DNA of 64,000 nt. It comes from Candidatus Altimarinota bacterium (GTDB lineage Bacteria > Patescibacteriota > Gracilibacteria > BD1-5 > UBA2023). Below the pieces are notes generated by a model. That model was not told the origin of the DNA and did no database searches. It saw only the letters and a list, made by a program, of their open reading frames with translations. The translations under genes were made by a program, and so were the position numbers. Where the stretch lies: positions 1 to 64,000 of the forward strand of contig PDRA01000009.1 in the NCBI GenBank assembly GCA_002747975.1, in the 5' to 3' direction. Below, one piece after another: positions 14,675 through 58,875 of the stretch (position 1 is the stretch's first letter; every line of letters begins with the position of its first letter).

Positions 14675-15649
14675 ATCATACTCTCATTTTTCTTACTTTC
14701 CATTCCTGCAAACCTTATTCCAAATACCTATGCGCAAGGGTGAGCAGGTGGAGTTACAACGACTGTTATCGAAAAAGAAGAGAGTATTGAAGGTGAAACC
14801 GAATCAAAACTCGAAGAACTCAATACATTCAAAAGTGAATTTGAGAACTTTTTTTTAACACCAAAACAGTGATGATGAGAATGACTCCTAGGAACTATGG
14901 TCTACATTGCCTTCCAAATCAAAAACTTTTTTATTGCTATTGCCATTATATTTCTGATTATTGGAGTTTTAACGCTTCTTTTTTCAGAAATGGATGCAAA
15001 TGCTGCAAAAAAATGGAAAAATAACATCATATGGGTATCACTTGGTATTATTATCATGCAGATTGCCTTTGGTGCCTGGAATACTCTTCTTATAGGAAGT
15101 AGTGAGGCAAGTACCACAATTTGATCGGCTTTGAGTTGGAACTTTTGGAGCAGCGTACTGGCCCCTCTGGTTCGTATGATTCAGATGTTTGCAGGGTTTG
15201 TCTTTATTGTCATGATGATCTATGCATTTTATGTTATTATCACGAGTGCCTGAGATGAGAGCGGAAGAAAAAAATGAATCAATATGGTAATCTATTCAGT
15301 TATCGGGTTTATTCTGCTGCGTATTCCTGATATTATTGTCAGTTCATTTTATACGAATCTTCGTGATTGTAGTGGGGAAACATTTGGATTTATCAATCCA
15401 TGTACTGGAAGCAAATGAAGTGATTTTTCAAAAATTATTGGAGCGGTTGGAAATATTATTCAGTGGATCAATGGGATGCTCGCTGTTGTGTGTGTTATTC
15501 TGGTTTTGTACGCTGGCTTTCTTATTCTCAGTTCACGAGGTGAAGAAGAAAAACTCAAAAAAGCGAAAAAAATTATCATTTATATTGCTATAGGACTCGC
15601 CCTGCTTTTGCTTTCACACGCTATTTTCCGTTTCTTTATTCTTAAATAA
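14675..15649 (+). CDS. Multi-span membrane protein of secretion-like locus A
   Basis: The open frame runs from after TAA 14666 to TAA 15649. It has a signal-peptide-like start (IILSFFLLSIPANLIPNTYA), a glycine- and Glu-rich external segment, and about five membrane helices, plus WIxGMLAVVCVILVLYAGFLIL and KKAKKIIIYIAIGLALLLLS near the end. The frame has no ATG, GTG or TTG before 14897. Initiation must therefore use ATC 14675, ATA 14678 or similar, or a base is missing. TGA runs encode QGGAGG and KQGGGEG. No family is recognised; the layout and position before a VirD4-like ATPase suggest a secretion-channel or pilin-like membrane subunit. Confidence 0.6.
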
Positions 15650-15661
15650 TTTCTCGACTCG

Positions 15662-18094
15662 ATGAATAATGGTGAATTCATCTTTGCCTTCATTGTCGTA
15701 TTAGCGGTGATGATACTTTTCGTTCTTCAGCTTAAGAAACGGGTCAGCTATAGACGTTCTCTCAATCAGGTATTTTTGAGGGTTATTGTTGCCAGAAAAG
15801 ACAGTGAAAGTGATGAAAAAAAAGATACGATCAAGGACTTTCGAGAGCAGATTTCTATTATGGAGCAGTTTTTTGCTGGACTCAAATCGCTGTATTCTTC
15901 GACATTTATGGCCTGGATTTTTGGTCAAGAGTATATTTCTTTTGAATATGTTGCACACAAAGATGAGATTTATTTTTATGTTGTGGTTCCAAAACGATCC
16001 CAACTCCTTGTCGAAAAACAAATTATCGCCCTCTATCCAGACTGTCTTATCGAAAAAACCAATGAAGTCAATATTTTTAAAGATAGAGCCTACTCTCGTG
16101 GAGAAATCATGCGACTGGCAAAAACCGAAGAATACCCAATTCGAACCTATCAAAAACTCGAGTCAGACAGTATCAATGCTCTGCTTTCTGCGCTCGGACG
16201 TCTTGATAGCCAAAGTTCAGCTGTAATTCAAATTTTATTGCGTCCAGTTCCAGATACTTGGCAAAAGAAGATCAAGAAAATGATACGAAAAACGGAGAAA
16301 TGAAAACCAAAAAAACGATATTTTTCTCTCAATCCCCTTGTATGGATACGAGGTTTTATCGATATTATGCTGCGAAGTCCAGATGACACTGTCAAAGAAG
16401 AACCACAAGAAATAAAAGAAGATGAAGATCCGATCGATGATGAGGGACTGATGAAAGAAAAAGTCAAAAAAACAGGATATGAAACGGTTATTCGTATTAT
16501 TACAACCTCAAATGATGAAAATACCGCAGAAGTAGAGCTCAAAAATATTATTTCTGCATTTTCGCAGTTTGCCTCACCAGCCTATAATAAATTTAAACCA
16601 ATCAAGTGGAAATCACTCTCATTAGTGGTTCACTATTATATCTTCCGACAGTTTGCTTGGTGGCAGCCAGTCAATATATTTAATATTGAAGAACTTGCCA
16701 CCATTTTCCACTTTCCACATTCAAAGTATAACAGACAACCAGAAATTAAATGGCAGCATTTCAAGATTGTCAAAGCTCCAAGTAATACACCAACAGAAGG
16801 ACTGTATATTGGAGACAATGTTTTTCGTGATGAGCGAAAAAAGATCTTTCTCAAAAATGAAGACCGTTTCCGACACTTTTATGTGATCGGTCAAACAGGT
16901 ACTGGTAAATCTTCTATCCTCTCCGTGATGGCAAGACAAGACCTACAAAATCATCGATGACTTGCCGTTATTGATCCACATGGAGATTTTGCCGAGGGAC
17001 TTCTTGACTTTATTCCAAAAGACAGAGCTGATGATTTGGTGTTTTTTGATCCAGGAGACCTCTCTCGTCCAATGGGACTCAATATACTTGAAGCTGAAAC
17101 TGACGACGAAAAGGCTCATACAGTCAAAGAAGCCACCAATATTATGATAAAACTGTTTGGTCCAGAGATTTTTGGACCGAGAATTGTAGACTATTTTGAA
17201 AATGGTTGTTTTACCCTTATGGACTACCCAAACGGTGGAGCCATTACTGATATTATCAAACTCTTTACCGATGAAAATTTCCAGCGAGAACGTCGAACGA
17301 CGCTCAAAAACCCAATTGTAAAAGCATGGTGGGATCATACCTATGCAAAAATGGGAGCAAGAGAAAAGGGAGAAATTATTCCATACTTTGCAGCAAAATT
17401 TGGTCAGTTCATTACCAATACAATGATGCGAAATATCGTCGGACAAACTAAATCTGCCTTTGATATTACCGACATTATGAATAATGAACAAATTCTTCTT
17501 ATCTCTCTTTCGAAAGGGATACTTGGGGATTTGAATTCAAAACTTATCGGACTTATTCTGGTGTCAAAAATTCAAATGGCAGCGATGAAACGACAAAAGA
17601 TGGATCCAAAAGATCGAAAGGATTTTTTCCTCTATATTGATGAGTTCCAAAACTATGTCACTGATTCTATCGAATCTATCCTCTCAGAAGCTCGTAAATA
17701 TCGACTTGGACTCATCATCGCTCACCAGTATATTGGACAGCTTCAAAAATCTGATGCCCTCACAAAAACTGATCTCAACCTCAAGGATGCTATTTTTGGT
17801 AATGTAGGATCTATCATGAGTTATAAAATCTGACCAGAAGATGCTGATCTGATGACAAAACAATTTGCTCCTGTCTATAGTGAGCAAGATTTTATCAATA
17901 TGGATGCCTTTCAGGCGGCTTTGAAGCTTTCTGTCGATGGAAAACCAACAACAGGATTTAGTCTTGATGTTCCTCGTCCTTGGCTCACACAAGGCGACTA
18001 TGAAACCGGTCAAGCCCTCAAAGCACTCTCTCGTCTCAAATATGGAAGAGAACGAGAATTTATCGAAAAAGAAATTATCTATCGTATTTCATAA
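15662..18094 (+). CDS. VirD4/TraD-like secretion ATPase, paralogue A
   Basis: The 810-residue protein has an N-terminal membrane helix (residues 6-24), a long cytoplasmic region, Walker A IGQTGTGKSSIL near residue 410, the LAVIDPHGDF strand, Walker B FFLYIDEFQNYVTDS and the sensor-like GLIIAHQYIGQL. This is the conjugative coupling protein type, which pulls DNA or protein substrates to a type IV secretion channel. The C-terminal half is clearly homologous to the ATPase at 44426-47290 (for example RNIVGQTKSAF against RNIIGQTKSAF). It starts 12 bases after the membrane protein and precedes a secreted protein, which suggests one operon. Confidence 0.82.
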
Positions 18095-18105
18095 CCCTTT
18101 TATTT

Positions 18106-19065
18106 ATGAAAAAAATATTTATCTCTCTTGTGTATATACTTTTTTTACCTCTTTCTTCATACGCTCAAGAAGAAAAAGAATTTAATGCAACCTATGAATC
18201 CTATCAAAACAATGTAAAGAAATACTGTGATACCAAGGATCGTCCCTGGGCAAAAAAAAATGCCCTCATCCCAATACCACAGTACCCAGCACTTGATACT
18301 GATGCTATCAATAATCAAATTGAAAAAACAAAAAATCTCAATAATGTCAGCAATGAGGAAAAGAGACGACTTCAAGAACAGCTTGCTCAAGATAGAATTG
18401 CTCATTTTAATGGTCTCAAAGTCGTGGAAGTCGCTCGAAATCAATACCGTGCTGCTATGAATAATGTTTTTGGCTGCGCTGTTGTCGATGGAAGACTGCA
18501 GATTCTCGATACTCTCAAGAAAAAAATAGAAAGCCAAACCCAGTGAAGAAATTCAGAAATTAACAAAAAACTCGACGCCGAAAAAGATCGACTCGAACGA
18601 CAGCGAGATAAACTCCAGTGCAATACATCAAGAAACAAACAGATTCCTATGAGTCGACAGCTTGTCAATAGTGCAAGCAGACAATACTGTCATTACCGAT
18701 ACTGGCTTGCTTATGTTGATGAGAATTTTCAGGAAAATAAACACAAACTTGATACGCTTGAAAGCACTGTAGGAAATCAAAATCCAGATACGAGTAAAGT
18801 ACATCCTCGTACGATTGAGGGATGGAGGAAATCATTTATACAGCAATCAAATAGCCTAGAAAAAGAGATTAATCGTGCTGACCAGACGCTTCCTCGTGCC
18901 ATTCAAGCGTTTCAAGATATGCAGTACAGCTATCCAATTCATTTAATGCTTGTCATTATCTACGATGATTTTATTCGGCTGAGAAATAACCTCTCAGTGT
19001 ATATGAATGCCTCATCACAGCTCTACCAAAAGGCATATAATGCTCAAGACAAAAATGAGCGATAA
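18106..19065 (+). CDS. Secreted coiled-coil protein of locus A
   Basis: The 319-residue protein has a signal peptide (MKKIFISLVYILFLPLSSYA, cleavage before QEE). The rest is mostly helical, with charged heptad-like stretches (EEKRRLQEQLAQDR, KKLDAEKDRLERQRDKLQ) and about five cysteines. One TGA (TQGRNS) is bridged as glycine. No family is recognised. It is the last gene of locus A, directly before a strong terminator, and is probably an extracytoplasmic component or substrate of that system. Confidence 0.7.
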
Positions 19066-36867: not shown

Positions 36868-37491
36868 ATGAAATTTATTTCAGATATCATCACTTTTTTT
36901 CGCGATATTTTTATAGAAAAATCTGGAGAAGATGATTTTTTGATTACAGTCAAAAATTATACACAAATATATAAAAATCAATTTGAAAAAAATTATCTTA
37001 ATGAAATCATCGTTGCTTGCGCTTATAAGGAAATAGAAAACGATCTCAAGATGTATAAATACCAATCCCAACAATATAAATCAAAGAAGATTATAAGGGC
37101 GTATATTGAAATATTTACAAAGTATTCTCATACTTTTGGTACAAAAAATATCGCTATTGTCCCAGTTCCGACTCACTGGAGAAGAAAAGTATTTCGCTGA
37201 TTTGATCATATGAAATACATAAGCAAAAAACTCTCAAAAAAAATAAATATTCCAGCCTTGCCTCTTCTCTCTACAAAGTACACGCCTCAGCAGTCAAAAC
37301 TTCCACGAAGCAAGCGTCTTAAAAATAAAATACATGCCTTTAGGGTTAAATCCTCATATAAAATCCCAAAGAAAATAATTCTCATCGATGATGTTATCTC
37401 GACAGGAGCGACAGCAAATGAATGTGCGAAAGTACTTAAACAATCATGAGTACAAAAGGTCTATGGATGTTTCTTAGCCACTAATCAATAA
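36868..37491 (+). CDS. comF: ComF-like phosphoribosyltransferase-fold protein
   Basis: The 207-residue protein has the ComF landmarks: [37 protein letters not shown] near residue 110, [14 protein letters not shown], and the PRPP-loop motif [18 protein letters not shown]. ComF proteins support natural transformation, possibly by assisting single-stranded DNA handling. The usual N-terminal zinc finger is absent. It begins three bases after the membrane-protein gene and ends four bases before uvrA. Confidence 0.85.
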
Positions 37492-42627: not shown

Positions 42628-44151
42628 TTATGTTTTTTGTCGATATCAAAGAGCTTCAAGTATGTGTCTATCTTCGACATATTTTTGTCAATCGAGGTCA
42701 GCGATGGTGCGAGCAACTCGTAGGATTCTATAGTAGGATCGAGTCGAAAGGTTCATTTTTTCGACAGATTTTATGGCTATATTTCGAGCACTTTCTTGTA
42801 TATTTCCAAATTTTTCTATTTCTTTACTTGAAAGTTCACTATTTCTTTTTGGTCAAATTCCAGTCGCCTTATGTCGAGCTTTTTGTATTTCTATTGCTTG
42901 TATAATTTGTTTTTGAATTTCGCTTGAGGGAGTATTACTTTTTGTGCTTTTTTGGAGTTCTTCTATCTTTATACGAGGAACATTGATATACATGTCAATC
43001 CTATCGAGAATTGGCCCAGAGAGCTTTGATCGGTATCGGTCGATTGAGTGTCTTGTACAGCTACACTGTTTTTCTGGATCTCAAAGGAAACCACATGGAC
43101 AGGGATTCATCGCTCCAACAAGAGAGAAATCACATGGATATTCTGAACTTTGATTGACACGGTTGACAGTAATTTTGCCATCCTCAAGAGGCTGTCGAAG
43201 GGTCTCTAACAGTCGTTTTGAAAACTCCAAAAATTCATCGAGAAACAAAATTCACTTATGAGCCAGAGAAATCTCCCCAGGTTTTGCATCTCTTCATCCT
43301 CCGATGATACTCGCTTCACTGGCGGTGTGATGAATGGTTCGAAATGGTCTTTGGTTAATAATAGGAGTATCGGCAGAGAGAAGTCCAGAGACAGAATATA
43401 TTTTTGAAATTTCTATTTTTTCTTCTATATCAAGTGGAGGAAGAATACCAGCTAAGGCTTTTGAGAGAAGAGTTTTCCCAGATCAGGGTGGTCATTCCAT
43501 GAGGAGATTGTGTCCACCTGCTGCTGCAATCATAAGGGCTCTTTTGGCATGATCTTGTCCGATAATTTCCTTGAAATCAGTGTAGATTTTTCTCTTCGGT
43601 TCAAAAGAATTTTCTATTTTCGGACAATTATCAATCATTTTTTGCCCGTTTAGGTACTCTATTGCCTCTTGGAGTGATTCAATTCAGATAACGGTAATAT
43701 CTGGTATCATAGATGCTTCTCATAGATTTTCTTTTGGGAGGAAGATATATTTTTTTCCAATTTCACGAGCGAGTATTGCTGCAGGAAGGACTCAGATAAC
43801 TTTTCGTACTGATCCATCGAGGGCAAGCTCTCATAGGAGAATACTTTCCTCGATAATATTATCTTTGTACTCTATTTGTTCAGCGAGGATTCACAGGGCA
43901 ATTGGCAGATCATAGATAGGTCATTTTTTTCGTACATCAGCTGGAGCAAGGTTGACAGTAATCCTGGCCCCACTTGGAAAGGTAAAACCAGAATTTTTGA
44001 TTGCACTCCTGACTCGTTCTTTGCTTTCTTGAACTGCAGTATCACCCAATCATACAATCATAAATTGCCCCATACCACGCTTGACATCGACTTCAACCTC
44101 GATGAGGGCTCCAATGATTCCGTGCACAGATGCAGAATAGAGTGTTTGCAT
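42628..44151 (-). CDS. comM: YifB/ComM-family AAA+ helicase-like protein
   Basis: The 507-residue protein has the Lon-like N-terminal domain ([41 protein letters not shown]), then a Mg-chelatase AAA+ module with Walker A LLMEGPPGSGKTLL, Walker B GILFLDEF and a finger block [17 protein letters not shown]. The C-terminal domain has [20 protein letters not shown]. ComM is a hexameric branch-migration factor that extends recombination of transforming DNA. The Walker A glycine before the proline pair is TGA. Confidence 0.94.
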
Positions 44152-44300
44152 AGAGAACAAAATGATACAAAAAGTATATAAAAAAAGTAAAAAAAGTAAA
44201 GCAAAGTCCTAAGTATTTATAGATATACAACTATTTATTTTTTAAAAATATATATCAAAACATATTAAAAATATATGTAAAGCGAAAATTTACGAAAGAT

Positions 44301-44329
44301 TTGAAGAATTTACAAATATATGCTATCAT
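44301..44329 (+). promoter_or_regulatory. Promoter of type IV secretion-like locus B
   Basis: TTGAAG (44301-44306) and TATCAT (44324-44329) are 17 bases apart. The remaining part of 44152-44425 also holds the comM upstream region on the other strand, without a clear consensus promoter. Confidence 0.5.
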
Positions 44330-44425
44330 ATATTATTTTTTGCATACACATATTCTGCTTGAGCCATAGAAGTTCGAACAGCAAGACCAGAAGAAAAGGT
44401 TCCAACAGGTACGTGGGATGGTGTT

Positions 44426-47290
44426 ATGGATTGAATTTTTTGGTTATTTTCAAATATTCTTGCTATTATTGCACTGGTCCTTTTTGTATGGATTATGATT
44501 CGAATTATTCGACTTATATTTGAAATCTATACATCAAGAAATCTTGTATACTTGCGAATACTTTTGCCACGGGCGGATTCCAAACTTGATAAAGAACAGG
44601 AAACAAAAAAGGATTTTAAAGAAAAAATTGGTATTATGACACTCTTTTATAAGAGTATACATATGATCGGACAAATTAGTGCTTGGCAAACCATGATGAA
44701 TTTTCTTTTCAATCATTTAAAAGTTTCACTTGAGGTTTTTTATGATAAATGAGAAGTTTATTTCTACATTACTTGATATCAAGTAAATATAAATCTTATC
44801 AGACAGCAGATCACCTCAAACTATCCAGATGCAGAAATTACTGAGATTCCAAGAGAGAAAATGCCAGACATTAAGCCAATATGATATGCACTTGAAGCGG
44901 CTTCTATTGGAAAAGAAACTGATGATATTTATCCAATTAAGACTTATAAATATTTTGAGGATGATCCTCTTTCAAGTTTGACAAATAATTTTTGATCACT
45001 TCAAAAAACAGATGTCGCCTGTGTCCAGTATGTCATCAAGCCACTTGGAGCCAGCTGGAATCGACGAGCCAAAAAAGCCGCTCGATTGGTCGCAAAATGA
45101 GAATACAAAAAATGACTTAAATTTGGTATTATCGGATCAGCTTTTAATTTTTTGACGGCACCATTTCGATGGTTTTTGTACCGATTTGTAAAAAATGAAT
45201 CTCTCTCAGGCCCTTGAGATACTACTGCTCCATGAGCCTCTTCTGGTGACGCTTACAAGATCTTTAACCAAGCCGAAACAGAGGCTCAAAAAATGGTTGG
45301 TGAGTCAGCTGGTCAGCCTGGATTTGAGACGTCTATTCGTATTTTGGTCGCATCAAAAACTCGATCCTCAGCGCATGAAGGACTTAAAACATTAATTTCG
45401 ACCAATTCTGTTTTTACAGATGAATACAACAATCAGCTCGATAATCCACAAATATTGGAGGATTTCTTTCGATTTTTCTTTACTCCAGTTCGTTACTTTG
45501 CTTTCAAATATCGATTGGTTTGACTTTTGCAAAATATCAGTCGATTTTCGACCGATGAACTGGCAACAATGTATCATTTCCCTGATATTAAATACAATCG
45601 ATCACCGCTTATTGCCTGGCTTGAATATAAGATGCTTCGACCACCAATTGAACTCAAATTTCCAACAGATCCACTCAAGCTCTCTGATTATAAGAGGGAT
45701 TCGAATGGAAATATCATCACGGTTGATGGATCACTTCTCAAGGTTGATGAAAACAAAAATCTATTTCGAGATAAAAACAAAAATCTTGAGCTTATTGATG
45801 GTACAACTCTGCCAATAGTGCGAGAAGGAAAAAATCTTGGAAGACCAATTGATGAAGGGAAATATCCAATTGAACAAGATGTTCAGAGAACTCTGGGAGG
45901 ATTTCCACTTTTCAAAAATTCGGTACTTATGTGATGGAATGAATACAGAAGTCGAAAAACTCCAATCTATTTTGACAAAAAAGATCGTGGACGACACCAA
46001 TATATTATCGGTAAATCTGGTTGAGGTAAGTCTGTATTTATCGGGTCACTGGCGCGTCAAGACCTCTGGAATGGAGAATGACTGTGTGTTATTGATCCAC
46101 ATGGAGACCTTGTAGAAGATATTATTTCTTTTACTCCAAAAGAGCGAGCAAAGGATATGATTGTATTTGATCCGGCTGATTTTGAGCGTCCTATGGCACT
46201 CAATATGCTTGATATTATTGCCACAGAACCAAATCTGCGAGCCATAGAAAAAGATAGAGCCGCTCTTGATGCTACTTCTATTTTTATCAAGATGTATGGT
46301 GATGAGATCTTTGGTCCTCGTATTCAGCACTATTTCCGAAATGGATGTTTGACGCTAATGGATGATGAAGATGATGGAGGAACCCTTATCGATGTACCTC
46401 GACTTTTTGTCGATGAAGCGTATATGAAATACAAGGTTTCAAAGGTCAAAAATGTCATGGTAAAATCCTTTTGGAAAAATGAATATGCCCAAACAGGCGA
46501 CAGAGAGCGACAAGAAATGATTCCATTTTTCCTTTCGAAGTTTGGTCCATTTATTACCAATACAACGATGCGAAATATTATTGGACAGACAAAATCTGCC
46601 TTTAATCTTCGAGAAGTCATGGACACTCAAAAGGTTCTTATGGTTAACCTTTCAAAGGGTAAAATTGGAGATATCAATGCTCAGCTTCTTGGACTTATCA
46701 TGGTATCAAAGATCAATATGGCAGCCATGGCACGAGCCGATATGCCAGAAAAAGAGAGAAAAGACTTTTATCTCTATGTTGATGAGTTTCAGAATTTTGC
46801 CACCGATACTTTCTGAGAAATCCTCTCAGAAGCTCGAAAATATCGACTTGCTCTTATTATGGCTCACCAGTTTATTGCCCAGATTTGAGGAAGTGGTGAA
46901 AAGTACAAAAGCACTGGAAAACCATCAATCAAAGATGCCGTATTTGGTAATGCTGGAACGATTATGAGTTTCAAGGTTGGTGCCGAAGATGCAGAATACC
47001 TCGAAAAAGAATACGCTCCGCTTCTTTCCCAGCAAGATATTATCGGTATTGCAAAATATACCGCCTACTGTAAGCTCAATATTGATAATTCGACAACTCG
47101 ACCTTTTGATATGAAGACGATTTGGGATCAAACTCACAAAAATGCCGCTGTTTCTGATGTTATCAAAGAATATTCTCGAAAAATGTATGGACGAAAGAAA
47201 AAATACGTCGATATGGAAATTGAAGCCCGAATGGGTATGACTCAGGAAAATGATACTAAGTCGGATTCCGAAACTCCAAATATAAATTAA
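44426..47290 (+). CDS. VirD4-like secretion ATPase, paralogue B
   Basis: The 954-residue protein starts with one membrane anchor (MDGIFWLFSNILAIIALVLF). A long N-terminal region leads to Walker A IIGKSGGGKSVF near residue 527, LCVIDPHGDLVEDI, Walker B FYLYVDEFQNFATD and LIMAHQFIAQIG. The second G of the SGGGKS loop is TGA. The frame stays open upstream to about 44240 without ATG, GTG or TTG and could add a signal-like FFAYTYSAGAIEV segment; ATG 44426 is the first canonical start. It is a paralogue of the protein at 15662-18094, with an extra insertion of about 100 residues before the P-loop. It leads an operon with phosphatase, VirB4-like ATPase and pilin-like genes. Confidence 0.82.
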
Positions 47291-47305
47291 ACCTAATTTT
47301 CTGTT

Positions 47306-48511
47306 ATGCGAACACTTCTCTTCATTCTTGTATTTTTAATAGCTGCTATCAATTGAGCTATTGTTCTTGGTATATTCGGAATTTTTGAATATGAGCCACT
47401 TCAGCAAATTATAGATGCACACCTTTCATATGTTATTATCGCACTAGCTCTTCAGTTGCCAGTTCTCTATATTCTTTTGCATTTTTCATATATTCGTCCT
47501 GTTGCTCTCTTAAATAAAAATATTGCCCGATTTTATACTGGTATTCAAGAAAATCCTGATATCAAAGCAAACTCTTGGAGTTCTGGTATGAATAATCTTA
47601 TCACCTTTTTCTTAAAAAGTTTGGAAATTTTACGTGTTTTTAAAGAAGAACTCAAAGATGGTCGGGTTCTCAAATCGGAGGTGGAAATTGCCAGTGAAAT
47701 CCAAAAACAAAACCTTCTCAAAGAAGATGATGTTATTCCTGGACTCGATATTGCCATTGGTATTGATCCAGCTTCTGAGGTTGGATGAGACAGTGTTGAT
47801 ATTGTCTCATGAAAAGATGGAAATCACTATCTCTACGTTTGAGATGTTACCGGACATGGTGTCCCTTCTGGATTTGTGATGATGATGGTAAATGCCCTTA
47901 TTTCTGCCTTTTCAGAAAAGGCAGTGCAGGGAGACTATATTCTCGGTGCTACTAACAAAGTCCTCAAACCAAGAATCAAACCAAATATGATGATGACCGC
48001 GCTCATGCTTCGTTGGGACAGTATAAATCAAAAAATGTACTATACTGGAGCTTGACATGAATACCTTCTTGTTTATAAAGCTGACAAAAATAAAGTCTAT
48101 AAAATCAAGAGTGGTGGCGTTGCTTTGGGAATGATGCGAGATATTTCTCGTACCCTCAAAGAACAACCAATACCTTTTACTTGAAATGATATCATAATTC
48201 TATATACTGATGGTATCACGGAAGCTCGGTATCGATCTGAGCAAAGTGGAATCTTATTTGGGGTTGATAGACTGATCAATTCTATTCTCTCGGCTCCACA
48301 GCATACGCCAGAATCTATTTTTACAAAAATTACCACTGATCTTTCCGCATTTATGGGGTATAAACATATCCAATACGATGATATTACACTGGCTGTTATT
48401 GGTATGAATTCAAATCCACTCAAATGAACAACGCTTATGAAAATACCAGAAAAGATCAATCCAGATAATCTTACGGAGTGGAACTGGTGAATACAAACAT
48501 CAACAAAATAA
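47306..48511 (+). CDS. Membrane-bound SpoIIE/RsbU-type PP2C phosphatase
   Basis: The 401-residue protein has two membrane helices (residues about 4-24 and 42-62), a short linker with coiled coil (LKSEVEIASEIQKQNLL), and a SpoIIE-class serine phosphatase domain. Metal-binding landmarks are GDSVDIV, VGDVTGHGVPSGFVMMM, YYTGAGHEYLLVY, IILYTDGITEARY and YDDITLAVI. Such phosphatases switch partner proteins by removing phosphate from Ser or Thr. It lies between two secretion ATPases, with 15- and 20-base gaps, so regulation of the secretion apparatus is a reasonable inference. No cognate kinase is in the window. Confidence 0.88.
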
Positions 48512-48531
48512 TTTTCTAATACTCTTTTATT

Positions 48532-50460
48532 ATGGCTTCTACAACACTTGCACAACTTGTATCATCAATTTATACTGGTGATGTTCAATGACTTGATACT
48601 ATACAATCTTCGCCACAAAGTACAGTTTCGACTCAGAGAACTTCGCCTGTGGTTTCTCAACAAAAATCACTTGCATCAAGAGATGATTTTCCTGATGATG
48701 GTACAAAGAAACTCACAAAAGAAGAGGCTCTTATTCTTAAGGAAACTGAAAAAGAATACAGAGAATCTCTGGCTTTTATAAAAGATATGATTGCCCCATC
48801 AATGATAAAAATTGATGCTACGAAACTCCAAATAGGAGACACCTTTATCCGTACCGTTTTTACCTATAGTTATCCAGATGTCCTTGAGTGAAATTGGCTT
48901 TCACCTCTTATCAACTGGGATGTAAAATTTGATATGTCGATGTTTGTCTATCCAGTATCAAGTGGACATGTCATGAAGTACCTTCGTCGCAGGCTCACGC
49001 AGCTTCGATCGCAGTATTCTATCAATCAAGATAAGGGACTGACAAGTGATCCGCATCTAGAAGCGCAAATGCAAGACGTAGAAGAGCTCCAGCGATCGCT
49101 GACACGAGGGCAAGAAAAGTACTTTCATTTCACATTGTATGTGACTATCTATGCAGAGAGTGAAGAAGAAATGAAAAAACTTTCCAATAAACTCGATACC
49201 ATGCTTGCAGGTCGAAATATTATGACAAAACAGGCATTTTTGCGAGCAGAGCAAGGATTTATTGCCACTGGTCCTTTTGCAAAAGATGAGGTCAATGTCT
49301 ATAGAAATATTTCTACGAAGGGACTTTCGACAACGTTTCCATTTAGCTCGAATTCACTTTCACAGGATGATGGAATTTTTTATGGAATCAATACACACAA
49401 TAAATCACTTATCATTTTTGATCGATTTCAATCGGAAAATGCAAATATGTGTGTCTTTGCCAAATCTGGTTGAGGAAAATCATTTGCTGTCAAGCTTGAA
49501 ATCCTTCGATCGCTTATGATGGGCACAGATGTGATTGTCCTTGATCCAGAAAATGAATATAAAGCACTGGTAGATACGGTATGATGAACCTATCTCAATA
49601 TATCTTTGAACTCCGATGAGAGAATTAATCCATTTGATCTACCACGATGACTGAAAGATCGAGATGAACATCCTGGTGATCTTCTTCGGTGAGCTATTGT
49701 TAATATGATTTGACTGCTTCGTTTGATGCTTGGTACTATTACGCCGAATGAAGAAGCCATTATCGAAAAAGCTCTGATCACGACCTACTCTCTTAAGTGA
49801 ATCACGATGGAAGATGACAGTGTTGAATGAAAAGAAATCCCTCTTCTCAAAGACCTTGTTTCTGTTCTTGAAACTATGGATGGTGCCACTGGGATTGTCA
49901 ATCGACTTGAGAAATATACGGTTTGAGTATTTTCCTGAGTTTTTTCTCAGCATACAAATGTTGACCTGAAATGAGGATTGGTTGTGTTTTCTGTTCGTGA
50001 TCTCGATGAAATTCTTCGTCCCATTGCTATGTATATCCTTCTTAATTATGTGTGGAATGTGGCTCGTTCAAGCAATAAAAGAAGATTTCTTGTCGTTGAT
50101 GAGGCGTGGAATGTGATGCAATATGAGGACAGTGCGAGGTTTCTCTTTGGTCTCGTAAAGCGAGCTCGTAAGTATGGACTTGGAGTGACGACAATTACGC
50201 AGGATGTTGAGGATTTTATGACTTCAAAGTATGGAAAAGCCATCGTAACCAACTCATCGATTCAAATGCTTCTCAAACAGTCTCCAGCCTCGATTGATGT
50301 TCTTCAAAACGTATTCAAGTTGACAGAACAAGAAAAATATATTCTCCTCAATGCCTCGGTTGGTACTGGACTCTTCTTTGCTGGAGGTGAGCATGTAGGA
50401 ATTGAAGTTCTTGCTTCTTATTTCGAAGAAAATATTATTACCAAAGGTATTGCTTCTTAA
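48532..50460 (+). CDS. virB4: VirB4/TraC-like secretion ATPase
   Basis: The 642-residue protein has a low-complexity N-terminus (about 1-60), a VirB4 N-terminal domain (SMFVYPVSSGHVMKYLRRRL) and the motor domain. Walker A is CVFAKSGGGKSFAVKLEILR near residue 317, followed by DVIVLDPENEYKALVDTVGG, Walker B RRFLVVDEAWNVMQ and the GVTTITQDVEDF strand. VirB4 ATPases power assembly of type IV secretion pili and channels. The middle glycine of SGGGKS is TGA, as are those of VGGTYL. It is flanked by the phosphatase and a pilin-like protein. Confidence 0.9.
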
Positions 50461-50469
50461 CTTATCTCT

Positions 50470-51399
50470 ATGAATATGCTTTTCAACACTAAAAAATGAT
50501 CGGTTCTTCTGATTGGTATGATTCTTTCGGTTTTTGTTTCTGTCTTGATTCTTGGACTTGCTGATCGAATTCAGCGATTTGCCCAAAATAGTTCTTGAAT
50601 AGAGGCTTCTACTCAGGCCTACTATAAGGCTACCAGTACGATCGAAACACAGCTGATGGAAAATGCTGATCTGCGGACGCAGCCATGGAAACTGACAAAT
50701 ACAGGAGCAGGAAATCCCTATAGTGGATCGGGATATGAGTTGATCGCTCAAACAGGAGGAAGTGTGATTCCAAGTCCTTGACAAGGAAATAGTCCATTTA
50801 GTTCAGGCTATAATCTTATCACTCTTTCTGAGCCAGTTCAGTTGGTAATACCAAACTGAGTCAATTGGTCAAATGTGAAAATAAAATTTCGAGTTCCAGA
50901 TCTCGATGAAGACGATGTCTCAGAAATAATACAGGTTTCAAATACTCTTTCATGAGTCATTCTTTGGACATTTGGATCTCGAGAAGATATTTTATACGCC
51001 AGTGGAGAGACAAATATTATACAATATCGGCATATTTTCGATGGGAACGACATTGCTAACCCCTTTTCAATTAAAGATAAAGAATGATTCCTTTCATCAA
51101 ATACAGCATCTGGAGAAACATTTTGAAGTTTTTATACAAATACTCTTTGACCAGGTGGTGATAAGTGTAAGAACTATAAATGTACCCTTAAATTTTCTAT
51201 GATTCGTCGAATTCCTTTGGATCTTCAAAAAACGCTTCCATTTCTTGAATATAAGATAGAGTTTGCTCCAACTACCATCCCAAATCGGTATATGAAAATT
51301 GATTCAAATGCCTATGTACGAGGGTATCTGCGAAGCCGACATGTAGAGATTCCACAAATTACGACCAATACTGCACTTGACTTTGCAGTCCTTCAGTAG
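50470..51399 (+). CDS. Pilin-like (PilX-type) exported protein of locus B
   Basis: The 309-residue protein begins MNMLFNTKKGSVLLIGMILS, continuing VFVSVLILGLADRI. This is a basic leader, then Gly-Ser and a hydrophobic helix as in PilX-like minor pilins. In such proteins prepilin peptidase cuts after the glycine, here a TGA codon. The rest is beta-rich with a Cys-x5-Cys pair (KCKNYKC). It starts 10 bases after virB4. A pilin-like subunit in a VirB4/VirD4 operon is unusual and suggests a mixed apparatus. The peptidase is not in the window. Confidence 0.65.
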
Positions 51400-51411
51400 T
51401 ATAATGGCGCC

Positions 51412-52395
51412 ATGAAAACAATTATTATTTCAGAATCGAGTGACGCTGATCAGCGACTTGATAAGTTTATCAAGAAGTTTTTTCCTAGCGCGCCACTTGG
51501 TGCGCTCTACAAGATGATACGAACTGGAAAAATCAAGGTTTCAAAAAAAAAGAAACCCCTTTCGTATCGACTCAATATACACGATGAAATTCAATTTTTC
51601 CTTACGGATGATGAATTCAAGACTTTTCGTGGTCAGCAAAAAATACAAAAACAGCCTCAAAAAAAGAGGGATCTTGATATTCTCTATCAGGATGACTACC
51701 TTCTTGTGATCAATAAACCAGCCTGAGTCAATGTTCATCCCTGAGACTATAAAAGTGATGAGATTTCTCTTATCCAACAGGTTCATGATTTCCTGGGGAC
51801 AAAGTATAATACACTTACTTTTAAGCCATCACTAGTCCATAGAATTGACAGAGATACTAGTGGATGCATACTGGTTGCCCTCGAAAAGAAAACTCTTGTC
51901 GATTTACTCTCGCAATTACAGAACCATAGCATTACAAAGATATACCATGCTATTTGATATGGAAAACTTCCAGGTATGAAGTGAAAATTGACAAATAAGA
52001 TCCTAAGAATAGAGAATGCAAAAAATGAAGCAAAGGTTCAAGTCAGTGAAAAATGACAAAAGGCTATAACGCACTATAGTGTGATTTCAAATTTTAAAGT
52101 AGACAACTTCGACATATCCCATATCGAATGTCGACTTGAAACTGGAAGAACACATCAAATTCGCGTGCAATTATTATTTAATAATTGTCCGATTTTATGA
52201 GATAAGCAGTATGGAAATAAAAAAATAAATAGCTATTTTCGCAGGCATTTTGATATTTCAAGACAATTGCTTCACGCAAGAAAGCTTGAATTTTTCCATC
52301 CAATAACAAGAAAAAAAATACAGATTGAAGCTCCATATCCAGATGATTTAAATCGAATTATTTCTTTTTCTCAATCTTGAGAAAACACCGTATAA
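51412..52395 (+). CDS. RluA-family pseudouridine synthase
   Basis: The 327-residue protein has an S4-like RNA-binding domain (residues 12-65, DQRLDKFIKKFFPSAPLGAL). The RluA catalytic domain follows: LVINKPAGVNVHP, the catalytic-Asp motif LVHRIDRDTSGCILVALEK near residue 143, and the CRLETGRTHQIRVQL block. The target uridine (RluC/RluD type) cannot be assigned. Glycines at NKPAG and HPGDY are TGA. A CAATTATT-N4-AATAATTG palindrome at 52168-52187 lies in frame within the RVQLLFNNC segment. It follows the pilin-like gene by 12 bases. Confidence 0.9.
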
Positions 52396-57831: not shown

Positions 57832-58875
57832 TTATTCCATATAGAGTCGGTCGCGATCTCTCATATTAAAGAGGGCTTCGGTTTCTGTAATAATTCCATC
57901 TTTAAATAATTTTTGTATGGATTGATCCATGAGGATCATTCCTTCTTGTTGAGCGGTTTCAAGGGTTGAGTAGATATATTGAGTCTGCCCTCTGAGGATG
58001 AGGTTTCGAACTGAGTCATTATTGAAGAGAATCTCTCGAGCAACGATACGTCCACTGTTATCAGCTTTTGGTATGAGGACTTGAGAAATTACAGCCTTGA
58101 GAGTCAAAGAGAGCTGCATACGAATCTGGTTTTGCATGGTCTCTGGAAATGACTGAATAATACGATCGACGGTTTGAACGGTATCATTGGTATGAAGTGT
58201 CGAAAGGACAAGATGTCCTGTTTCTGCCAGTGAAATAGCAGCACTAATCGTATCAAGGTCTCGCATCTCACCAACGATAACGATATCTGGATCTTCACGA
58301 AGAACAGATCGAATACCACCTCAAAAGCTCTTGAAATGCCTTCCCATTTCTCGCTGATTGATAAAAGATTTATTATCTTTATATACAAACTCAACTGGAT
58401 CCTCAAGGGTAATAACATGTTTTCGCATATTTTTATTGATATGCTCAGTCATTGTTGCCAGTGTCGTAGATTTACCACTTCCGGTTGGACCGGTTACCAG
58501 AATAAGTCATTTTCCAGTACGAGTTGCATCGAGGAGATGTTTTTGGAGCAAAATATCTTTTGGTTCTGGAATTTTTGAGAGAATAGTACGCATTGAGATT
58601 GTAATCCCATGAATGGTTCGAAAGATATTGACACGAAATCGAGTTCATTTATGTTCAAACGAGAGATCAACAGAAGTTTTTGTAAATGGTTTCTCATATA
58701 AGATAGCAATCACTGATTCGATATCTTCAGCTGAAAGAGTACCAAAACTCTCCACCGGAACAATGTCCCCGATTTGGTTTCGTATGTAGGGAACTCGCCC
58801 TGTACTCAGGTGAAGGTCAGAGATGTTTTTTTTGATGACTTCTTCTACAAGAGAAAGAAATTTAGAAGTTTCCAT
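57832..58875 (-). CDS. pilT: Twitching-motility ATPase PilT
   Basis: The 347-residue hexameric ATPase retracts type IV pili. Landmarks: [20 protein letters not shown] near the N-terminus, Walker [18 protein letters not shown] near residue 127, the Asp box [15 protein letters not shown], Walker [18 protein letters not shown], and the His box [22 protein letters not shown] encodes glycines in KGLIL and SFGGGIRS. Retraction is needed for both twitching and DNA uptake, matching the ComEC/ComF/ComM genes. An SLH-type exported protein lies just upstream. Confidence 0.95.

Follow-up and report, generated by a model that had tools for sequence, protein, structure and literature searches.

A candidate partner-switch phosphatase encoded beside the type IV secretion motor in an order of Gracilibacteria

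Partner switches of the Rsb/SpoII type, such as RsbU-RsbV-RsbW and SpoIIE-SpoIIAA-SpoIIAB, combine a PP2C phosphatase carrying aspartates that presumably bind metal, a STAS protein whose serine occupies the position phosphorylated in SpoIIAA, and a HATPase_c_2 kinase with a conserved N-box. Two described variants lie closest to the present case. The BtrU-BtrV-BtrW switch of Bordetella serves type III secretion and is reported to intervene, in part, in secretion as such; for the RsbU/V/W system of Chlamydia trachomatis, control of the primary sigma factor has been reported (PMC8256260). On the side of secretion, the type IV secretion system (T4SS) of Patescibacteria has been described as near-ubiquitous, with VirD4 homologues mostly encoded away from virB4 and with few relaxases; in Gracilibacteria, VirB6 is missing and TrsD is not encoded near virB4 (Quinonero-Coronel et al., 2025; PMC12102498). 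Here we describe four genes at positions 44426 to 51399 of a stretch of 64,000 nucleotides, hereafter the window, from contig PDRA01000009.1 (assembly GCA_002747975.1) of Candidatus Altimarinota bacterium, a member of the order BD1-5 of the Gracilibacteria. With a probability of roughly 0.55, we interpret the locus as encoding the motor and coupling ATPases of a chromosomal, apparently non-conjugative T4SS beside the phosphatase of an Rsb/SpoII-type partner switch. Each component is of a known kind; the new part of the locus is the phosphatase stably joined to the T4SS motor.

Among the open-access PMC papers listed by our searches, we found no description of such a union, nor of partner switching in this phylum. 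The words "phosphatase" and "SpoIIE" are absent from the main text of PMC12102498, figures and supplements aside, and the available parts of PMC11665869, PMC12857230, PMC11452946 and PMC8080830 make no mention of a phosphatase in this setting.

The four genes follow each other on the forward strand with intergenic gaps of 15, 20 and 9 bp:

44426-47290, + strand: P0001, VirD4/TraD-like coupling ATPase, 954 aa (Pfam PF02534, T4SS-DNA_transf, 9.1e-12; start codon unsettled)
47306-48511, + strand: P0002, membrane-anchored PP2C/SpoIIE-type serine phosphatase, 401 aa (PF07228, SpoIIE, 2.9e-38)
48532-50460, + strand: P0003, VirB4 motor ATPase of the CD1110 / Patescibacteria T4SS family, 642 aa (NF045971)
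50470-51399, + strand: P0004, prepilin-like protein, 309 aa (leader recognized by eye; no Pfam family)

The genome (G000; 0.98 Mb in 41 contigs, 92.5% complete) reads TGA as glycine, and this very small bacterium is probably dependent on a host. Under translation table 11, TGA codons interrupt all four genes, whereas the frames are open under table 25. The in-gene TGA codons coincide with conserved glycines, for example G161 and G179 of P0002, which are glycine in 21 of 21 homologues, and the four genes are confirmed as real under code 25. P0001 scored 45 bits against PF02534 (cut-off 20.1) and has 11 orthologues with 71-76% identity; VirD4-like matches occurred in all 59 genomes of the order that we compared, our own included. 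Homology in the P0001 frame runs on 5' of the ATG at 44426 (window positions 44300-44426) with no in-frame ATG, GTG or TTG there, so that either the start codon or the assembly is unsettled. In this upstream region, relatives begin with what looks by eye like a signal peptide. Walker motifs were recognizable by eye in both ATPases, P0001 and P0003. A predicted structure of P0001 (pLDDT 42) was too poor for interpretation.

One line of evidence for our interpretation is the pairing of the phosphatase and motor genes. A PP2C gene lies less than 700 bp upstream of the VirB4 gene on the same strand in 43 of the 59 genomes, our own among them, against an expectation of about 0.02 for random placement. 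By family, the pair occurred in 23 of 27 genomes of f1, 20 of 30 of f2 and neither of the two of f3. Beyond these 43, the genes are split at contig ends in two genomes (G017, G027), with PP2C and VirB4 fragments in the same order, and five more genomes carry the PP2C gene 1.7-4.4 kb upstream of VirB4. PP2C matches as such were present in 56 of the 59, the missing ones being G015, which is 70% complete, and both f3 genomes. Two families, with at least 43 genomes between them, preserve the adjacency, although the other neighbours (VirD4, prepilin-like, RadA, FtsA/FtsZ) vary: a VirD4-like gene stands directly upstream of PP2C in 10 of the 59 genomes, and a P0004-type gene follows VirB4 in only six, our own included. 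In several other genomes, a T4SS pilin gene follows the VirD4-like gene. An earlier, sequence-only reading of this locus had linked a T4SS-type motor to a SpoIIE/RsbU phosphatase, and this link is supported by the synteny comparison that it called for; of the four genes, the inner pair proved widely syntenic in the order, the two outer genes only in a minority of genomes.

We obtained a similar picture with a second, named GTDB set, in which the pair was present in 43 of 55 order-type loci and in none of 15 loci outside the order. Order-type loci were defined by a VirB4 model score of at least 1045 and at least 1.5 kb of upstream sequence; L220, an order member with a truncated VirB4, was not counted. 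This set is not independent of the first, because at least 35 of its 80 contigs agree in length with contigs of the first set. Across a sample of 239 genomes from the whole phylum, VirB4 matched in 225 and the PP2C in 11, all of the same class and including our own.

P0003 scored 365 bits against the VirB4 CD1110 family model NF045971 (cut-off 325), and VirB4 matches, mostly single-copy, were found in all 59 genomes of the order. By family assignment and distribution, P0003 is a component of the chromosomal T4SS published for Patescibacteria. Shared with that system are the monoderm MPF-FATA/CD1110-type VirB4, VirD4-like ATPases encoded mostly at a distance from virB4, and the VirB2-like PF18895 pilins. 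Unlike the system in the available description (PMC12102498), virB4 here has a PP2C neighbour, which the VirD4-like gene joins in the minority of genomes counted above.

The phosphatase itself has conserved catalytic residues. D162, D180, D302, D358 and D359 of P0002 are present in 21 of 21 homologues and D165 in 20 of 21; we take these aspartates to be metal-binding. By eye, the protein has two transmembrane helices and a HAMP-like front part. Its best sequence match in the PDB is 6k4e, listed as a putative serine phosphatase, which we take to be SiaA of Pseudomonas; this match and a sub-threshold NCBIfam match to SiaA are confined to the catalytic domain. Beyond the PP2C domain, P0002 ends in a tail with the residues TEWNW (390-394), and among the 51 order loci whose end is complete, 49 carry the form [TS][EDQ]W.W. 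Three sister-lineage proteins that we checked are without that form, one of them having a shorter TEW. As a guess, the tail could be a docking peptide.

P0002 contains the only SpoIIE domain of its genome, and candidates for both partners are encoded there as well. The single HATPase_c_2 match is an RsbW-like kinase, P0006 (C26:71254-71790), which scored 48.2 bits against PF13581 (cut-off 27.4), remained below the NCBIfam spIIAB cut-off and had no PDB sequence match up to E 0.1. One STAS protein, P0005 (C26:61217-61573), passes the cut-offs of PF01740 and of the anti-sigma-antagonist family TIGR00377 (61.1 vs 53.45 bits), in addition to a weak STAS match below the cut-off on contig C12. The best PDB match of P0005 is SpoIIAA (1.1e-8); in the alignment, Ser61 of P0005 falls on the leading serine of the DSSG loop, presumably the phosphorylated one. 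All 18 STAS homologues compared retain the motif NSKSIG, and all 20 kinases the motif DE..NN. The kinase and STAS genes lie about 10 kb apart on C26, with PilB- and PilC-type genes between them. For the matching kinase that the sequence-only reading suggested looking for, there is therefore a candidate of the right kind, accompanied by a SpoIIAA-like protein in the same genome.

Gene order in relatives also brings these families together. In sister lineages of the class, an orthologous PP2C lies directly beside a STAS gene in five of nine genomes, as in the Rsb and SpoII systems. In a phylogenetic tree, the sister-lineage PP2C and the VirB4-linked phosphatases formed one group (96/96), in support of their orthology, and a second set of paralogues formed a separate clade (100/99); a long-branch warning applies to the other, order-specific paralogues in that tree. 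Within the order, a STAS gene follows VirB4 after 85 bp in locus L213 and after 0.5 kb in L191 and L199, there behind a small gene on the opposite strand. A second PP2C of genome G020 (L275:7840-12047), side by side with a kinase, a STAS protein and an ECF-like sigma factor, was set aside as a different, canonical and complete module.

In the circuit we propose, the kinase P0006 would phosphorylate P0005 at Ser61. P0002 would sense an envelope or contact cue through its two-helix, HAMP-like front part and dephosphorylate P0005, and free P0005 would then capture the kinase, releasing the kinase's other client. Because the phosphatase would be produced together with VirB4, the switch would operate where the T4SS is present. 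The genes, their conserved catalytic residues and the synteny are observed; that the three proteins act specifically on one another, which cue and client are involved, in which direction control runs, and that the T4SS is controlled at all, are inferred. Phosphorylation acting on the apparatus, and a use of it on host or prey cells, as in the sequence-only reading, are likewise hypotheses.

The output of such a switch may differ from that of its models. The 92.5% complete assembly of G000 has a single Sigma70_r2 match, and 11 of the 59 genomes have exactly one; no cognate alternative sigma factor was found in G000 by the Sigma70_r2 search, sigma-54 not having been searched for. A canonical output through an alternative sigma factor is therefore unlikely here, and we accordingly speak of a set of proteins that would work like a partner switch rather than of a sigma regulator. 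In contrast to the Rsb and SpoII systems, no sigma factor gene was seen alongside, the genes are dispersed, the phosphatase gene has a T4SS motor gene as its neighbour, and one family has the kinase gene in a pilus operon. The Bordetella switch resembles our proposal in serving a secretion machine, but that machine is type III and not type IV, and the lineage is unrelated. Taken together, the Bordetella and Chlamydia precedents leave two live models, direct control of the contact machines or control of the main sigma factor.

For the first of these models, the surroundings of the kinase gene are relevant. We examined 20 of 52 kinase matches, chosen loci, several of them picked for a nearby T4SS pilin match. 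An HU gene preceded the kinase in 15 of the 20, and in seven loci, all of family f2, the HU-kinase pair stood last in a series of genes for pilus assembly and pseudopilins, a series that is reduced in L134. The series (L117:2287-8291; also L118, L119, L120, L125 and L131) consists of PilN/PilO-like genes, PilC, four pseudopilins, HU and the RsbW-like kinase. In L117 to L120, a PF18895 T4SS-pilin match heads this kinase-terminated type IV pilus operon. With the kinase encoded last in a pilus operon of one family, the circuit would coordinate pili and the secretion channel. We made no use of the presence of PF18895 within about 6 kb of the kinase in seven genomes, as the 5-16 PF18895 matches per genome bring this count to about chance level by a rough estimate.

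Our reading is an Rsb-type switch tied to both the T4SS and pili, perhaps with no alternative sigma factor involved. A more specific version, in which a sigma-independent switch directly coordinates the two contact machines, with the PP2C in the T4SS locus, the kinase in the pilus operon of one family and the STAS protein relaying the signal, so that a motile, piliated state is set against an attached, secreting one, is a possibility that we hold only tentatively and consider somewhat doubtful. A 2024 perspective describes the mechanisms of motile/attached differentiation in Patescibacteria as completely unknown, and type IV pili and a predicted T4SS as essential in a Saccharibacterial species (PMC11665869). 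A concrete and testable candidate for this control in Gracilibacteria would be a conserved phospho-switch of three proteins, the phosphatase gene of which stays with that of the T4SS motor. The pairing with virB4, common across the order, may indicate the way in which such cells regulate their machinery for contact, and if the switch does work without an alternative sigma factor, the known scope of partner switching would widen.

Several observations weigh against this interpretation. In our own genome, the PP2C gene is on a different contig from the STAS and kinase genes, and the kinase was detected in only 45 of the 59 genomes. Some type IV pilus gene was present in 12 of the 20 kinase loci and none in the remaining eight; this fraction is biased, because the loci were hand-picked, some for a nearby T4SS pilin. 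One kinase locus, L127, belongs to another module, and in L184 the HU-kinase pair lies 1.5 kb upstream of the PP2C-VirB4 pair with two genes between, one of them on the opposite strand. Eight other genomes of the same class, outside the order, matched both the PP2C and VirB4, and in none of them were the two genes neighbours. The co-variation of PP2C and VirB4 (Mantel r 0.89) does not count for an interaction, since it reflects only the species tree and vertical inheritance. The two f3 genomes (G028, G030) retain VirB4, VirD4 and the T4SS pilins, yet neither the PP2C nor the kinase gave a match there and STAS matches were only weak; a T4SS can therefore exist without the switch.

Two alternative explanations accept the same genes and differ in what the pairing means. 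The kinase might bind the housekeeping sigma factor, as the Chlamydia precedent suggests, so that the triad would control growth or differentiation globally and its adjacency to virB4 would only time the production of the phosphatase. The single Sigma70_r2 match of our genome and of others fits this scenario, which nevertheless appears unlikely to us: a purely global role leaves unexplained why the PP2C has a STAS neighbour in sister lineages and a VirB4 neighbour in this order only, and G028 has six Sigma70_r2 matches yet neither PP2C nor a detected kinase. Alternatively, the gene order could have been inherited from the ancestor of the order, the two genes having a promoter in common but not a pathway. 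Both genes are indeed vertically inherited, their gap exceeds 100 bp in many f2 genomes, they are not adjacent in 11 genomes that have both (G017 and G027 set aside, and some of the 11 at contig ends), and f3 is without a PP2C match. Mere neighbourhood is still quite unlikely in our judgement, given that the adjacency is kept where the other neighbours differ and that three loci have a STAS gene in this region as well.

The remaining alternatives concern the nature of the machine, beginning with gene 4. The sequence-only reading had seen a four-gene operon ending in a PilX-like prepilin and, from this, a possible hybrid apparatus. The genes and their gaps of 9-20 bp stand; the fourth product can be called no more than prepilin-like, and a further gene follows on the same strand:

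51412-52395, + strand: RluD-type pseudouridine synthase, 12 bp 3' of the P0004 gene and a frequent neighbour of the P0004 family

By eye, the P0004 leader KKG|SVLLIGMI is prepilin-like, being basic and ending in glycine before a hydrophobic helix, and G10 and S11 are invariant in six aligned sequences. The glutamate at +5 is absent, with isoleucine in its place, and P0004 matched no Pfam family, N_methyl and PilX_N included. Its predicted structure (pLDDT 45) was too poor to interpret; in the PDB, the fold search returned noise only (best E 0.012, none below 0.001) and the profile search nothing under 0.7. A structural role of the prepilin-like protein in a hybrid T4SS/type IV pilus machine could be argued from the 9 bp between VirB4 and gene 4 here, from its position closely behind VirB4 in five other genomes, from an ORF with a prepilin-type leader between PP2C and VirB4 in L213, and from the PF18895 match heading the kinase-ending pilus operon in four f2 loci. 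Homologues of P0004 occur in 57 of the 59 genomes (E <= 0.1), however, and in 53 of the 59 gene 4 is unmatched or elsewhere; among 16 such other loci that we examined, it lies behind an N-methylated-prepilin family gene in 15 and before RluD in 12. With gene 4 following virB4 in so few genomes, the hybrid idea is weak, and we regard it as very improbable. Still less probable, to the point of being hardly credible, is that the locus forms part of an integrative conjugative element, even though the families matched by VirB4 and by the T4SS pilin (NF045971, NF045849) are named after proteins of such elements. VirB4 is near-universal in the phylum sample, mostly single-copy and vertically inherited, and no relaxase or integrase family was present among the 32 window ORFs scanned with Pfam, no genome-wide relaxase search having been made. 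A conjugative or mobile element is unlikely on these grounds, in agreement with the argument of the sequence-only reading against plain conjugation.

The ORF in L213 (L213:1109-3886) encodes 925 aa with the leader KAFTLVELIVV, on the same strand as the flanking PP2C and VirB4 genes and the STAS gene that comes after VirB4. Upstream of gene 1, a sigma-70-like site lies at 44309-44336; a better promoter-like site (TTGACT-17-TATAAT) lies at 51377-51405, at the end of gene 4 and before RluD. Both are weak as evidence because the region holds 40 such sites against 31.8 (sd 5.3) in shuffled sequences.

Further T4SS-like genes were found elsewhere in the window:

14897-15649, + strand: T4SS pilin-like protein, VirB2-type (PF18895, 1.5e-16; NF045849 over cut-off), 12 bp before the second VirD4-like gene
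15662-18094, + strand: second VirD4-like ATPase, paralogous to P0001 with 48% identity over the ATPase part (above the cut-offs of DUF87 and TrwB_AAD_bind)

This pilin is one of 14 PF18895 matches in G000 and the only one in the window. Together with a following protein without a Pfam family (family F28), the two genes make up a second T4SS-like unit at 14897-19065, and the VirD4-like paralogue and the F28 protein also occur together in L093, L095 and L096. PrgI (VirB3) and TrsD had no match in the stretches of our genome that were searched (the window, L100, L101, L115 and L138), no search of the whole genome having been made. In 7 of 10 sister-lineage loci (L267, L268, L270-L274), another membrane PP2C, a second paralogue, is encoded close to a PrgI-TrsD pair of T4SS genes, with lepA between the PP2C and the pair in the four loci read gene by gene. 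In several relatives, a protein with Sigma70 region 4 and HARE-HTH (L080:16485-17537) adjoins the pilin and VirD4 genes. Around the T4SS genes, the window also encodes proteins of ComEC type (PF03772; 30233-31753), ComF-like by eye (36868-37491), ComM type (Mg_chelatase; 42628-44160) and PilT type (T2SSE; 57832-58875).

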